A DNA stretch of 64,000 nt from Pseudomonas lalkuanensis (GTDB lineage: Bacteria > Pseudomonadota > Gammaproteobacteria > Pseudomonadales > Pseudomonadaceae): positions 724,001 through 788,000 of the forward strand of contig NZ_CP043311.1 of the NCBI RefSeq assembly GCF_008807375.1. The letters are read 5' to 3'. Below, piece after piece: positions 35,578 to 40,410 of this stretch. The notes below the pieces were generated by a model. That model had not been told where the DNA came from. It saw only the letters and a program-made list of their open reading frames with translations, and made no database searches. The number at the start of each line of letters is the position of its first letter. Positions within the stretch are counted from its first letter, which is position 1. The position numbers and the translations under genes were made by a program.

Positions 35578-35859
35578 ATGACCGATACTCCTGACGTACA
35601 ACCCCCGAAAATCGAATTCCCCTGCGAGCGCTACCCGATCAAGGTGATCGGCGATTCCTTCGATGGCTTCTCCGACCTGGTGATCGAAATCATCCAGCGC
35701 CATGCTCCCGATCTCGACGCCACCACCCTGGTGGTGCGTGACAGCCGCAACGGCCGCTTCCTCTCGGTGCAGGTGCTGATTACCGCTACCGGCGTCGACC
35801 AGTTGCAGGCCATCCATGTGGACCTGCGCGCCACCGGCCGCGTGCACATGGTGCTCTAG
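35578..35859 (+). CDS. ybeD: DUF493 family protein YbeD
   Basis: Small cytoplasmic protein of 93 residues with an ACT-like alpha/beta fold (DUF493): [40 protein letters not shown] and TGRVHMVL. No biochemical role is established, but it is almost always found between dacA and lipB, as here. Its TAG stop overlaps the GTG start of lipB. Confidence 0.92.
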
Positions 35860-36485
35860 TGCCACCTGCCGAACTCATCGTGCGCCATCTGGGGTTGGTG
35901 GATTACCTGCCGACCCTCGAGGCGATGCGCCGCCTGACGGTCGAGCGCGACGAACGGACGCCCGACGAAATCTGGTTGCTGCAGCATCCCCGGGTGTTCA
36001 CCCAGGGTCAGGCCGGCAAGGCCGAGCATCTGCTGGCGCCGGGGGACATCCCGGTGATCCAGGTGGAGCGCGGTGGCCAGGTGACCTACCACGGTCCCGG
36101 CCAGCTGGTGGCCTATCTCATGCTGGATCTGCGCCGCCTCGGACTGGGTGTGCGCGATCTGGTCACGGCCATGGAACAAAGCCTGGTCGATGTGATGGCC
36201 ACCTATGGTGTCGAGGCCGCGCCCAAGGCAGACGCTCCCGGTGTCTATGTCGAAGGCGACAAGATCGCCTCGCTGGGGCTGCGGGTCAGCCGCGGCTGCT
36301 CCTTCCACGGCCTGGCGCTCAATGTGGACATGGACATGTCGCCCTTCTGGCGGATCAATCCCTGTGGCTACGCCGGGCTGAAGATGGTTCAGCTCAAGGA
36401 CCTGATCGAGACGCCGCCACAGTTCGACGAGGTGGCACAGCGCCTGGAGCAGGCTCTGCGTCGGCGGCTGGGCTACACGCAGTAG
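35859..36485 (+). CDS. lipB: Octanoyl-[ACP]:protein N-octanoyltransferase LipB
   Basis: Moves the octanoyl group from acyl carrier protein to lipoyl domains, the first step of lipoate synthesis. The 208-residue product has [20 protein letters not shown], the [20 protein letters not shown] substrate loop, the catalytic lysine in [14 protein letters not shown] and the adjacent [13 protein letters not shown]. The start is GTG overlapping the ybeD stop (TAGTG). It is the last gene of the cluster; a 15-bp terminator hairpin follows. Confidence 0.96.
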
Positions 36486-36506
36486 AAGGACGTGCCCGGA
36501 AAGACG

Positions 36507-36543
36507 ACGGCCCCCTCTCCCATCGGGAGAGGGGGCCGTTTCG
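36507..36543. terminator. Very strong hairpin terminator between lipB and lipA
   Basis: A perfect 15-base-pair stem (arms at 36507-36521 and 36525-36539) with an ATC loop is followed by TTCGTT on the plus strand. It lies 22 bases after the lipB stop and 38 bases beyond the lipA stop on the other strand, so it can serve both converging genes. Confidence 0.85.
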
Positions 36544-36576
36544 TTCAGTCAGCTCGCGTCTGATTGCCCGCTGCGA

Positions 36577-37629
36577 TCAACCCAGGTTGAGTGTCGGAAT
36601 GATGCTCGAATCGAGGGGCTGGCCCGGTACCGGAACTGGCGCGGCCAGGCCCAGGTTGTTCTTCTCGAACACCCGGTCGGCCCGGTAGCTGGAGCGCACC
36701 AGCGGGCCGGCTGCGACTTCCATGAAGCCCTTTTCGAGGCCGATATCGCGGAAGCGGTTGAACTCCTCCGGGCTGACCCAGCGCTTCACGGGCAGGTGGT
36801 TACGGGTGGGCTGCAGGTACTGGCCGAGGGTGAGGATGTCGACGCCAATGGCGCGCAGGTCGTCCATGGTTTCGATGATTTCTTCGTCAGTCTCGCCCAG
36901 GCCCAGCATCAGGCTGGTCTTGGTCAGGACATCCGGGCGGTGGCGCTTGGCGTGCTCCAGCACGCGCAGGGTCTTCTCATAGCCGGCGCGTGGGTCGCGC
37001 ACGACATGGGTCAGGCGCTTGACCGTTTCGACGTTCTGCGCGAACACCTCGAGGCCGGAGTCCACTACCCGTTCGATGGCTGCATGGTCGCCATTGAAGT
37101 CCGGGGTCAGGGCTTCCACGACGACCTGCGGGGTGTTCGCCTTGATGGCGCGTACGCAGGCGGCGTAGTGGCTGGCGCCGCCATCGTCCAGATCGTCGCG
37201 ATCCACCGAGGTCAGCACGATGTAGCGCAGCGCCATCAGCTCGACCGACTTGGCGGTGTTCTGCGGCTCTTCCAGATCCAGCCAGCCATTGGGGTTGCCG
37301 GTGTCCACGGCGCAGAAGCGGCAGGCGCGGGTGCACACCGAGCCCATCAGCATGATGGTGGCGGTGCCGTTGGACCAGCACTCACCCATGTTCGGGCAGT
37401 GGGATTCCTGGCACACGGTGCTCAGCCGATGTTCGCCGACGTTGCGCTTGACCGCGTCGAAGCGGCTGCCGCCCGGTGCCTTTACCCGCAGCCACTTGGG
37501 TTTGGGCTCGAACACCTGGGGTTCGGCGGAATTGCGGCGCTTCTGGCCATCCTTGATCGCGGTGATGCCCTGCGCGGTGCGGAACTTTTCGCCGCTGGCG
37601 ACGTGTTTGGACGAGTCTGTATCGGACAT
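36577..37629 (-). CDS. lipA: Lipoyl synthase LipA
   Basis: Radical SAM enzyme inserting two sulfur atoms into octanoylated proteins. The 350-residue product has both iron-sulfur motifs: the auxiliary cluster C-x4-C-x5-C in [14 protein letters not shown], and the radical SAM CxxxCxxC in [16 protein letters not shown], followed by [18 protein letters not shown] and the terminal RSSYRADR with the conserved RSSY serine. It converges on lipB, so the two lipoate genes are neighbours but separate units. Confidence 0.98.
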
Positions 37630-37769: not shown

Positions 37770-39086
37770 TCAGCGGCCTTCGCGCAACTGCCTGAGCAGC
37801 TCCAGGTTGGGGTAGCCGTCCGCTGGCCAGCCCAGGCGCTGTTGATAACCACGTATCGCCTTGCGGGTGTTGGCACCGATGATGCCGTCCGCCGCTCCCG
37901 GGTTGTAGCCGGCCGCGGTCAGCGACTCCTGCAGCTCTACCCGCTCGGTACGGCTCAGCGGGCGCTCGTCGCGGGGCCAGCTTCCGGTGAGCTGGCCACG
38001 GCCGTCGAAGCGTTCGCCCAGCAGGCTGACCGCCAGGGCGTAGGACGAGGAGTTGTTGTACTTGAGGATGGCCCGGAAGTTGTCCAGCACCAGGAACGCC
38101 GGGCCGCGATGGCCGGCCGGCAGCAGCAGGGACGCGGATTCGTTGGCCAGGCTCGTGGCCTGGGGGCCAGCTTGTACGCCCATGGTCTGCCACTGGGCCA
38201 CGGATTTACGGATATCGCCGTCGGCATGGGCATAGTCGAAGCCATCGGGTAGCTGGACCTGGATCGCGGCAGGTTGGCCCTTGCGCCAGCCGGAGGCCTG
38301 CAGATAGTGGGCGGCGGAAGCCAGTGCGTCGGCCGAGGAGTTCCAGATGTCGCGGCGGCCGTCGCCGTCGAAGTCCACGGCGTGGGTGTTGTAAGTGGTG
38401 GGGATGAACTGGGTCTGGCCCATGGCACCGGCCCACGAGCCGAGCATGCTGCCGGGCTGGATGTCGCCGTGCTGGAGGATCTGCAGGGCGGCCAGCAGTT
38501 GTGCGTGGGCGAACTCGGGGCGGCGGCCTTCGTAGGCGAGGGTGGCCAGGGAGCGGATCACCGACTTGTCGCCCATGAACTGGCCGAAGCTGCTTTCCAT
38601 GCCCCAGATGGCCACCAGGGGCTCACGGTCCACACCGAAACGCTGCTCGATGGCGCCAAGGGTCGTCGCGTTTTCCGCGATCAGGGCCTGGCCCTTGCGA
38701 ACCCGGTAGGGCGAGATGGCGCCTTCCAGGTATTCCCACACCGGTCGGGTGAATTCGGGCTGGCTGCGATCTGCGGTGATCACGCTGGCGTCGGGTGTTA
38801 CCCCGGCGAAGGCGCGATCGAAGGTGGCGGCATCGATGCCATTGGACAGGGCCTCGCGGCGGAATCCGTCACGCCAGGCGCTGAAACTGATGGCCGGCAT
38901 CACCACTGGGGGCTGATTGGCCTGTGCGGGCGCTGGGGCGGTCCTGGTAGCCGGTTGGCTGGCTTGGGGCAAGGGCGCGGTAGCGGGTTTCTGGGCCGGA
39001 GCGTCGGCGCAGGAGCTGAGCAGGGTGAGGGCGGAGGCCACGGCCAGGCTGCGGAACATCGGGCCGGGGACGGGGGCATCGAACAT
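37770..39086 (-). CDS. MltB-family lytic transglycosylase with peptidoglycan-binding domain
   Basis: Periplasmic murein-cleaving lipoprotein of up to 438 residues. An internal ATG at 39059 gives a clean lipoprotein signal, MFRSLAVASALTLLSSCADA; the ATG at 39086 has the better ribosome site, so the start is uncertain. After a Pro/Ala/Gln-rich linker comes the transglycosylase domain with catalytic Glu in IWGMESSFGQFMG, then GAMGQTQFIPTTYNTHAVDF and a C-terminal peptidoglycan-binding domain (ELQESLTAAGYNPGAADGII). It is the second MltB-type enzyme within 7 kb, distinguished from the first by this extra domain and the lipobox. Confidence 0.92.
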   Translation of the reverse strand: MFDAPVPGPMFRSLAVASALTLLSSCADAPAQKPATAPLPQASQPATRTAPAPAQANQPPVVMPAISFSAWRDGFRREALSNGIDAATFDRAFAGVTPDASVITADRSQPEFTRPVWEYLEGAISPYRVRKGQALIAENATTLGAIEQRFGVDREPLVAIWGMESSFGQFMGDKSVIRSLATLAYEGRRPEFAHAQLLAALQILQHGDIQPGSMLGSWAGAMGQTQFIPTTYNTHAVDFDGDGRRDIWNSSADALASAAHYLQASGWRKGQPAAIQVQLPDGFDYAHADGDIRKSVAQWQTMGVQAGPQATSLANESASLLLPAGHRGPAFLVLDNFRAILKYNNSSSYALAVSLLGERFDGRGQLTGSWPRDERPLSRTERVELQESLTAAGYNPGAADGIIGANTRKAIRGYQQRLGWPADGYPNLELLRQLREGR

Positions 39087-39141
39087 ACGCGAGTCTCGAA
39101 GCAGACGAATCGAGTCGCGACCTTAACATGTTCGAGCCTTT

Positions 39142-39300
39142 TCAGGCCGCCATAAGCGACGAAGCCTCCCAATCGTGGGAGGCTTCGCGGCGGTAACTTC
39201 CTTTGCCTTTCCGGGGCTTTTCCTGGCGGCAGCGGAAGAGTGGTTGGGCTACCAGGGATTTGGCGCGGTTGGGCGCACCTTGCTTGCGTTTCTTGGCCAT
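39142..39300 (-). CDS. arfA: Alternative ribosome-rescue factor ArfA
   Basis: A 52-codon gene that fits ArfA, which recruits release factor 2 to ribosomes stalled on messages lacking a stop codon. It starts MAKKRKQGAPNRAKSLVAQP; residues 20-47 (PLFRCRQEKPRKGKGSYRRE, then ASHDWEAS) align by eye with the core of E. coli ArfA ([20 protein letters not shown] ... NWEAS). The ATG follows GAGGATCGGCC. A 12-bp hairpin lies within codons 38-47, the place where E. coli arfA mRNA is cut so that a shortened active protein is made and the full-length form is removed. The last residues, SSLMAA, resemble an ssrA-type degron. It lies between holA and a transglycosylase gene. Confidence 0.88.
   Translation of the reverse strand: MAKKRKQGAPNRAKSLVAQPLFRCRQEKPRKGKGSYRREASHDWEASSLMAA
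39160..39187 (-). promoter_or_regulatory. Hairpin inside the arfA coding sequence
   Basis: On the minus strand, perfect 12-base arms CGAAGCCTCCCA and TGGGAGGCTTCG flank a CGAT tetraloop, 16 bases before the arfA stop. No T-run follows, so cleavage by RNase III is more likely than intrinsic termination. In E. coli a hairpin at the corresponding place creates a stop-codon-less arfA message and so couples ArfA supply to tmRNA capacity. Confidence 0.8.
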
Positions 39301-39372
39301 GGCCGATCCTCGATTGGCGCCCGCATCAGCGCGGGCGAGCGCATCATCGGCTTCTGCTCAAAATTTGTCCAG

Positions 39373-40410
39373 TTATTCAGCGGATAGCGGCAGGCGCTGG
39401 CCGGCCAGCAGCAGGGCAAGGCGTGCGAGGCCGTTCCAGGGGTCGCCCGGCGCCTGGCCCTTGATCTGCGCGTCGATACGCTGGGCATCCTGCAGCAACT
39501 GGTTCCAGCGCGATGCCGGGTGGCGTTGCAGGGCGCGGGTGACCAGTGGACGGCGCTTGTCCCAGACCGGCGGGCGGGCCGCGGCAAAGGCCTTTTCCAG
39601 TGGCACGCCCTGGCTGTATTGCTGGGCCAGACCGGCCAGCAGGCGCAGCTCCCGTGCCAGCGCCCAGAGGATCACCGGCGGCTCCACCCCTTCACCGCGC
39701 AGGCCTTCCAGCGTGCGCAGGGTGTGGGCGGGTTCACCGTTGAGGGCGGCGTCGATCAGGCCGAAGACGTCGAAGCGAGCGCTGTCGGCCACCGCTGCCT
39801 GGACGGTCGCGGCATCCACCTGGCCACCTTCGGCCAGCAGTTTGAGTTTCTCGATTTCCTGGGCGGCGGCCAGCAGGTTGCCTTCGACCCGTGCGGCGAT
39901 CAGGTCCACCGCTTCCTGGTTGGCAGCGAGGCCCGCCTGGGACAGGCGCTGGCGGATCCATTGCGGCAGGTTGTGGGACTCGATGGGCCAGATCTGGATG
40001 AACTGCGCGTCCGCCCCATCGATCAGCGCCTTGGCCCACTTGGTTTTCTGGGTGCTGCCGTCGAGCTTGGGCAGGCTCAACAGCAGCACGGTGTCTTCCG
40101 GCGGTCGGGACAGGTATTCCAGCAGCGCGGCAGCGCCCTTGTCCCCCGGCTTGCCCGAAGGCATGCGCACTTCCAGCAGACGCTTCTCGGCGAACAGCGA
40201 CAGGCTGGCACCAGCTTCCAGAAGCAGGCCCCAGTCGAAGTTGGTTTCGGCGTTGAACACCTGGCGCTCGCTGAAGTCGCGGGCGCGGGCGCTGGCGCGA
40301 ATGGCGTCGCAGGCTTCCTGGCAGAGCAGCGGCTCGTCGCCGCTGACGACGTAGACCGGTGCCAGAGGCCCCTGCAGGTGTTTACCCAGTTGTGCGGGGT
40401 TGAGTTTCAT
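39373..40410 (-). CDS. holA: DNA polymerase III delta subunit HolA
   Basis: Clamp-loader subunit that opens the beta sliding clamp. The 345-residue product has the delta-subunit features PVYVVSGDEPLLCQEACDAI near the N-terminus, the clamp-contact region NAETNFDWGLLLEAGASLSL FAEKR (split here only for length), and LRLLAGLAQQY with VWDKRRPLVTRAL in the C-terminal collar domain. It follows lptE by 39 bases, an arrangement (leuS-lptE-holA) conserved in gamma-proteobacteria. Confidence 0.95.
   Translation of the reverse strand: MKLNPAQLGKHLQGPLAPVYVVSGDEPLLCQEACDAIRASARARDFSERQVFNAETNFDWGLLLEAGASLSLFAEKRLLEVRMPSGKPGDKGAAALLEYLSRPPEDTVLLLSLPKLDGSTQKTKWAKALIDGADAQFIQIWPIESHNLPQWIRQRLSQAGLAANQEAVDLIAARVEGNLLAAAQEIEKLKLLAEGGQVDAATVQAAVADSARFDVFGLIDAALNGEPAHTLRTLEGLRGEGVEPPVILWALARELRLLAGLAQQYSQGVPLEKAFAAARPPVWDKRRPLVTRALQRHPASRWNQLLQDAQRIDAQIKGQAPGDPWNGLARLALLLAGQRLPLSAE

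Follow-up and report, generated by a model that had tools for sequence, protein, structure and literature searches.

The gene at the center of this study, a short open reading frame on the minus strand of the 64,000-nucleotide stretch of DNA analyzed here (hereafter the window), belongs to the ArfA family, carries a perfect hairpin inside its 3′ coding region, and ends in an Ala-Ala pair that is conserved among its relatives when the tails are anchored at the C-terminus. The explanation that best accounts for these observations, and that we consider probable as a whole, is an ArfA made from an mRNA lacking its stop codon and provided in addition with a gene-encoded, ssrA-like Ala-Ala degron. 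The coordinates of the features discussed below are given in Table 1.

The arfA Gene and Its Neighborhood

The open reading frame translates as MAKKRKQGAPNRAKSLVAQPLFRCRQEKPRKGKGSYRREASHDWEASSLMAA (52 residues, minus strand). The product matches the Pfam family ArfA (PF03889) with E 7.4e-12 and 45 bits, above the cut-off of 25.5, and also aligns over residues 9-47 with E. coli ArfA chains of known structure (best E 1.5e-6). The family search proposed in an earlier sequence-only reading thus bears out its claim of a 52-codon arfA with an E. coli-like core, while its description of the gene as hidden does not hold, since the NCBI entries of close relatives, several of them from Metapseudomonas, already bear the name ArfA. 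A search of the 52-residue product against NCBIfam gave no match up to E = 1, and an Rfam scan of window positions 38900-39600 returned only two chance matches, far below the gathering score. The plus-strand reading of 39142-39300 was rejected, as its translation yields no ArfA. An RBS-like GAGG precedes the ATG. The gene encodes ArfA, for which a role in RF2-dependent release is predicted from the family match.

ArfA was found in all 18 genomes of the genus, the source genome included, and in 348 of 398 Pseudomonadaceae genomes. Among the 50 of the 398 without an ArfA match, 18 of the 20 listed belong to two genera, g5 and g7.

The genomic setting is also shared. Of the relatives whose sequence extends far enough, 168 of 198 have a holA match upstream of arfA and 122 of 128 have mltB downstream. 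In the window, the minus strand between 39142 and 43854 holds leuS-, lptE-, and holA-like genes followed by arfA. If these are co-transcribed with arfA, a stop-less arfA could trigger trans-translation-coupled decay of the holA mRNA; decay of this kind is described for zntR-arfA in E. coli in the part of the source available to us (PMC10107115). The sigma-70-like consensus match ahead of the gene may represent a separate arfA promoter. Elsewhere in the window, at 35859-37629, an LplA/B-type gene (plus strand) and a radical-SAM gene labeled here as lipA-like (minus strand) are convergent.

Table 1. Features of the arfA region (window positions)
Feature	Position	Strand	Remarks
arfA CDS, 52 aa	39142..39300	minus	ATG 39300-39298, TGA 39144-39142; PF03889 match to residues 11-42
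Perfect 12-bp hairpin	39160..39187	minus	Arms 39176-39187 and 39160-39171, 4-nt loop; predicted RNase III site and/or terminator stem
U-enriched stretch behind the stem's GC core, TTCGTCGCTTATGG (14 nt)	39150..39163	minus	6 T vs 3.6 expected from synonymous codons; weak, interrupted
C-terminal Ala-Ala codons GCG GCC	39145..39150	minus	Proposed encoded ssrA-like degron; SSLMAA = 39145-39162
Sigma-70-like site	39371-39343	minus	42 nt before the arfA ATG; 9/12 matches, 0.1 expected in shuffles (consensus match only)
holA-like gene (DNA polymerase III delta)	39373..40410	minus	Stops 72 nt upstream of arfA
mltB-like gene (lytic transglycosylase)	37770..39086	minus	Begins 55 nt downstream of arfA

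The Hairpin in the 3′ Coding Region

The hairpin is composed of CGAAGCCTCCCA-CGAT-TGGGAGGCTTCG, with 12 bp that are 100% complementary, and spans nucleotides 114-141 of arfA, that is, codons 38-47, and begins two codons after SY. Its position inside the 3′ coding region and upstream of the stop codon is that of the arfA genes with stop-less mRNA. The last 59 nt of arfA fold to -33.2 kcal/mol, with a z of -5.25 relative to dinucleotide shuffles, none of which (0/200) is equally stable. When the segment from KGKGSY to the stop codon was randomly recoded with synonymous codons, keeping the protein constant, the observed stem score was reached by only 23 of 20000 recodings. The perfect 12-bp hairpin that the sequence-only reading had placed in codons 38-47 is thus confirmed.

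The stem is widespread. From 233 collected Pseudomonadaceae loci, 229 were parsed (L224, L227, L228, and L244 were left out), of which 199 are distinct after removal of duplicates (CDS + 30 nt). A stem of at least 10 pairs is present in 195 of these 199 genes, the exceptions being L029, L189, L246, and L247; the synonymous test is not significant for L029 (338/2000) and L246 (675/2000). Three ArfA genes of genus g12 (L029, L246, and L247) have no clear hairpin, and their products end in IA, AA, and VA. Of 87 genes with distinct stems, 48 were hand-picked for variety and aligned. Five hairpin pairs in this alignment have changed on both sides without loss of pairing; at three of the five, the pair is broken or gapped in some genes (5, 8, and 14 of 48).

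The source genome contains the genes for SspB, RNase III, and ClpX, and its tmRNA encodes the tag ANDDNYALAA. Together with the family match and the spread of the stem, the presence of these components supports the logic of a stop-less mRNA proposed from the sequence. Because the synthesis of ArfA from such a message is known E. coli biology, and because relatives are already annotated, the gene and its hairpin are in themselves ordinary.

Possible Routes to a Stop-less Message

The sequence-only reading ascribed the loss of the stop codon to the hairpin acting through RNase III. The hairpin part of this proposal stands, but RNase III may not be the lone route, since the U-enriched stretch after the stem offers a second possible one, intrinsic termination, which may weigh as much. 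Both RNase III cleavage and intrinsic termination fit the data, and both are reported to be in use for E. coli arfA in the available portions of two studies (PMC10107115, PMC3989581). In the 14 nt past the GC core, the mean number of T over the 199 genes is 7.40, compared to a synonymous expectation of 4.86 that, as a simplification, applies the codon usage of the source genome to all 199 genes. In the window gene, TTCGTCGCTTATGG shares bases with both neighboring features: the four nucleotides at its start also make up the outer part of the 3′ arm, and the Ala-Ala codons begin with its final G.

It is quite possible, although we stop a little short of favoring it, that the message becomes stop-less mainly by intrinsic termination and not by RNase III, which would be a compatible, detailed form of the explanation given above. 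Such a mechanism is consistent with the succession of a GC-rich stem and U-enriched DNA, a strong example of which, TTCTTACTTTTTGG in L080, resembles an intrinsic terminator, and with the spacing between the GC core and the terminal Ala codons: of the 163 genes with an Ala-Ala end and no extended tail, 162 have 13 nt there. As the U-tract stops short of the Ala-Ala-stop codons, termination would remove little beyond the degron and the stop codon. In addition, the hairpin of P. aeruginosa arfA is described as shorter than known RNase III substrates in the part of a review at our disposal (PMC13159725). However, the tract of the window gene is interrupted, with only 6 T in 14 positions, and a scan with the terminator consensus found no terminator on the minus strand. 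Furthermore, in 35 Halomonadaceae-type loci the best stem passes the stop codon, so that termination there would not produce a stop-less message.

The length of the active protein bears on the same question. Active E. coli ArfA has 53-55 residues according to the accessible part of PMC3989591, and thus ends about 15 residues past its KGKGSY. With an RNase III cut in the 5′ arm of the present hairpin, the protein would extend just a few residues beyond KGKGSY, less far than in E. coli, and might be too short. By this analogy, termination would be the favored source of active ArfA here.

The Ala-Ala End in Pseudomonadaceae

Five residues, SLMAA, follow the hairpin. The sequence-only reading gave this tail as SSLMAA, of which SLMAA is retained, the first Ser being encoded by the last codon of the hairpin. 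The protein ends in Ala-Ala-COO-, as do ssrA-type ClpX degrons, and its tail is similar to the last residues of ANDDNYALAA, the tmRNA tag of the source genome. As only SLMAA follows the hairpin, the SspB-binding segment (ANDDNY) is absent, which makes the tail ssrA-like and not an ssrA tag.

Most of the Pseudomonadales ArfA genes examined share this tail with the source genome. Among the 199 distinct Pseudomonadaceae genes, which are related by descent so that their counts are not independent events, 185 end in Ala and 177 in Ala-Ala, with LAA in 134 and MAA in 26; the other ends are AC (6), AG (4), CA (3), VA (3), AV (2), and YA, IA, TS, and LP (one each). As a control we used 306 ORFs of the source genome of at least 150 aa, taken from 20 stretches of 20 kb and from the 64-kb window. 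Here, 37 end in Ala, eight in Ala-Ala, three in a hydrophobic residue followed by Ala-Ala, and none in LAA. Of eight further loci outside the 199 (L278-L285), four repeat tails of that set, and of the other four, three end in AA and one in AC. Three protein searches were also evaluated, using the best 120 proteins of 271, of 730, and of 2959. In the first, which includes metagenomic entries, the AA end is found in 96 of the best 120 of 271 relatives.

The conservation is centered on the last two residues, and the third bases of their codons vary. The last Ala is encoded by GCC in 101 genes, GCA in 41, GCT in 36, and GCG in 7, and all four third bases occur at both Ala codons. For the 85 distinct canonical tails, anchored at the C-terminus, the entropy is 0.32 bits at position -1 and 0.40 bits at -2, and rises to 1.44, 1.83, and 2.50 bits at -3, -4, and -5, respectively. 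Extended tails, in which the stop codon lies more than 20 nt past the stem (25 genes), end in AA in 14 cases, AC in six, CA in two, and YA, TS, and LP in one each, the residues before the end being variable. The six long-tail genes ending in AC (L076, L082, L169, L172, L177, and L222) have RAC or SAC and share a common GCATGCTAA end; AC is also the end of E. coli ArfA.

The Ala-Ala End beyond Pseudomonadaceae

Searches were carried out across the order, where 390 genomes yielded 30 with ArfA (18 from Pseudomonadaceae), in family f3, where it was found in 69 of 201 genomes, and in family f170, with 107 matching genomes. At most 30 loci were taken from each search, and L288, which is below the cut-off, was left out. 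From the names of the closest proteins we identify f3 as Halomonadaceae. Family f170 is probably Pasteurellaceae, a guess based on AT-rich hairpins among other traits, and Ala-Ala ends are found in none of its 30 loci.

Among Halomonadaceae and other Pseudomonadales, the AA end is found at 37 of 40 loci (35 distinct tails), and AV, TA, and VA at the other three. The tails are varied and include RQAA, HNAA, VMRAA, HIALAA, RIAA, and MKAA. At position -3, most Pseudomonadaceae tails have Leu or Met, and 25 of the 35 distinct tails of the other Pseudomonadales have Gln, with which recognition may be weaker. A literature search on the tmRNA tag of Halomonas yielded no paper.

The hairpin is arranged differently in these loci. 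In all 35 Halomonadaceae-type loci (L134, L273-L277, and L319-L347), the best stem reaches beyond the stop codon, and in 33 of them it surpasses each of 40 mononucleotide shuffles; the exceptions are L337 and L344, the latter being cut by the end of the contig. With such a layout, termination would keep the stop codon, and only cleavage within the stem could give a stop-less message. A reading in which the other Pseudomonadales families have Ala-Ala and no hairpin was considered and rejected, because a stem is found in 35/35 once 60 nt past the stop codon are included.

In a profile search, 101 of the best 120 of 2959 proteins end in AA, among them both entries named Vibrio and one of the three named Shewanella. 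Among 120 enterobacterial proteins, 15 end in Ala and two in Ala-Ala. The four loci from outside Pseudomonadales in the class search (one of f170, two of f53, and one of f34) end in LK, LH, GD, and AC, none of them in AA.

Probable Selection on the Protein End

The ssrA-like tail noted in the sequence-only reading therefore stands as a C-terminal feature of the protein, on the basis of the Ala-Ala counts (177/199 relatives vs 8/306 control ORFs), the extended tails, and the other families. Selection on the end of the protein, and not just on the DNA, is the better reading of these sequences, although the RNA may act too.

Alternatively, the tail could be a generic hydrophobic end as in E. coli, taken by any protease that accepts a hydrophobic C-terminus, in which case the likeness to ssrA would be incidental and the hydrophobic residues partly imposed by the U-tract. 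The excess of T after the stem noted above (7.40 vs 4.86 of 14) does favor Phe, Leu, and Val codons, and the portion of a 2026 review available to us gives P. aeruginosa ArfA a hydrophobic C-terminus (PMC13159725). We nevertheless regard this alternative as unlikely, because the low entropy is confined to the two Ala positions and does not extend to -3 to -5, and because the common Halomonadaceae ends HRQAA and YRQAA are non-hydrophobic and still keep AA.

Still less probable is that the Ala-Ala codons are kept for the RNA, GCNGCN pairing with upstream codons (GGC AGC TAC or CGC CGC) and lengthening the hairpin, with the protein end as a by-product. RNAalifold does pair the Gly-Ser-Tyr codons with NTG-GCN-GC in an outer helix, through which the Ala codons could be retained as RNA, and CCGCC pairs with GGCGG in the minimum free energy structure of the window gene. 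Compared with their synonyms, the Ala codons actually present gain 0.48 kcal/mol of folding stability on average, and in 113 of 163 genes they fall within the more stable half of the 16 synonyms; yet in only six of the 163 do they give the most stable fold of all. Changes on both sides occur at none of the six outer-helix pairs, and the AA end is kept in 34 of the 37 genes in which the third bases of Gly or Ser weaken the helix. The variation at the third bases weakens this alternative further, as do the 14 of 25 extended tails ending in AA and the Halomonadaceae with their different hairpin layout.

That arfA is a pseudogene or an unexpressed relic, as its very short length might suggest, can practically be dismissed given its presence throughout the genus (18/18) and in most of the family (348/398), the conservation of its core, hairpin, and C-terminus, and the GAGG before its ATG.

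Proposed Mechanism

In the mechanism that we propose, ArfA would be an RF2-recruiting backup for trans-translation, whose mRNA would become stop-less at the in-frame hairpin through a cut by RNase III, through intrinsic termination within the U-enriched stretch, or through both. Ribosomes would stall on this message and, with tmRNA available, the nascent ArfA would receive ANDDNYALAA and be destroyed; without tmRNA, untagged and active ArfA would build up. An unprocessed message would instead encode the short tail with Ala-Ala-COO- at its end, the same C-terminal signal as in the tmRNA tag. A ClpX-type degron would then stand at the end of both normal routes, coming from tmRNA in one and from the gene in the other, and ArfA would be free of it only when truncated and untagged. 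The stop-less message, its tagging, and the activity of the truncated form are here carried over by analogy from E. coli, and the degradation of the full-length protein by ClpXP is predicted from its C-terminus.

This prediction rests on the role of Ala-Ala-COO- as the key ClpX determinant of the ssrA tag, through which an uncut message should give a gene-encoded degron of the ClpXP type. In the part of PMC7652416 available to us, Ala-Ala-COO- is ranked first among the ssrA elements in importance for ClpXP, and other proteins are described as targeted through degrons with a related Ala-Ala. For E. coli, the accessible text of PMC3989581 reports that full-length ArfA is unstable and that a C-terminal Asp-Asp stabilizes it, which is what either an Ala-Ala or a hydrophobic degron would predict.

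In a broader form, toward which we lean only slightly, the ArfA proteins of Pseudomonadales and of some Vibrio and Shewanella would carry, encoded in the genome itself, a copy of the Ala-Ala end that is essential in the tmRNA tag. Within Pseudomonadaceae, this copy would sit just behind an mRNA-truncating hairpin, so that formation of the 3′ end chooses whether tmRNA or the gene supplies the signal, and ArfA free of it would arise only when trans-translation is lost. The backup would in this way imitate the tag and form a double lock. The instability of full-length E. coli ArfA has been ascribed to a hydrophobic tail; if the broader form is true, the near-fixed Ala-Ala end in another order would recast this as a two-residue degron and would give a reason for keeping the tail although the active form is without it. 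The last residues of ArfA would then be a regulatory signal, and the backup system would be wired to the tag of the very rescue system it backs up.

Comparison with Known Systems

The ArfA family, its hairpin, and its stop-less control are already known. The Ala-Ala end as an encoded ssrA-like degron or a double lock was not found in the titles, abstracts, and accessible portions of the ArfA literature searched.

The window gene resembles E. coli ArfA (YhdL) in the ArfA core, with PLFR...KGKGSY and WEAS, and in the hairpin of the 3′ coding region with its predicted stop-less mRNA. As far as the available portions of the sources go, the C-terminal residues of E. coli ArfA beyond the hairpin are dispensable for activity, and 17-18 residues are lost, whereas in the window gene five residues ending in Ala-Ala lie past the hairpin. 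In the window gene, only a few residues also separate the hairpin from the KGKGSY core, fewer than in E. coli, and enterobacterial tails vary (2/120 AA), in contrast to the near-fixed Ala-Ala of Pseudomonadaceae.

P. aeruginosa ArfA (PA3990) belongs to the same family and has a predicted hairpin upstream of the C-terminus. In the part of the review at hand it is presented as having a hydrophobic C-terminus and a short, untested hairpin, and the Ala-Ala end is not mentioned there (PMC13159725).

Bacillus subtilis brfA, in the portions of the literature available, is similar in that a terminator inside the ORF gives a stop-less message, although BrfA has little sequence similarity to ArfA. A similar in-ORF terminator, giving a stop-less message, is said to have been described in the arfA of Neisseria gonorrhoeae by Schaub in 2012.

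Compared to the ssrA tag and the ClpX Ala-Ala degrons, finally, the ArfA tail differs in being encoded by the gene and in having no SspB-binding ANDDNY, while it shares with them the C-terminal Ala-Ala-COO-, before which Pseudomonadaceae usually have Leu or Met.
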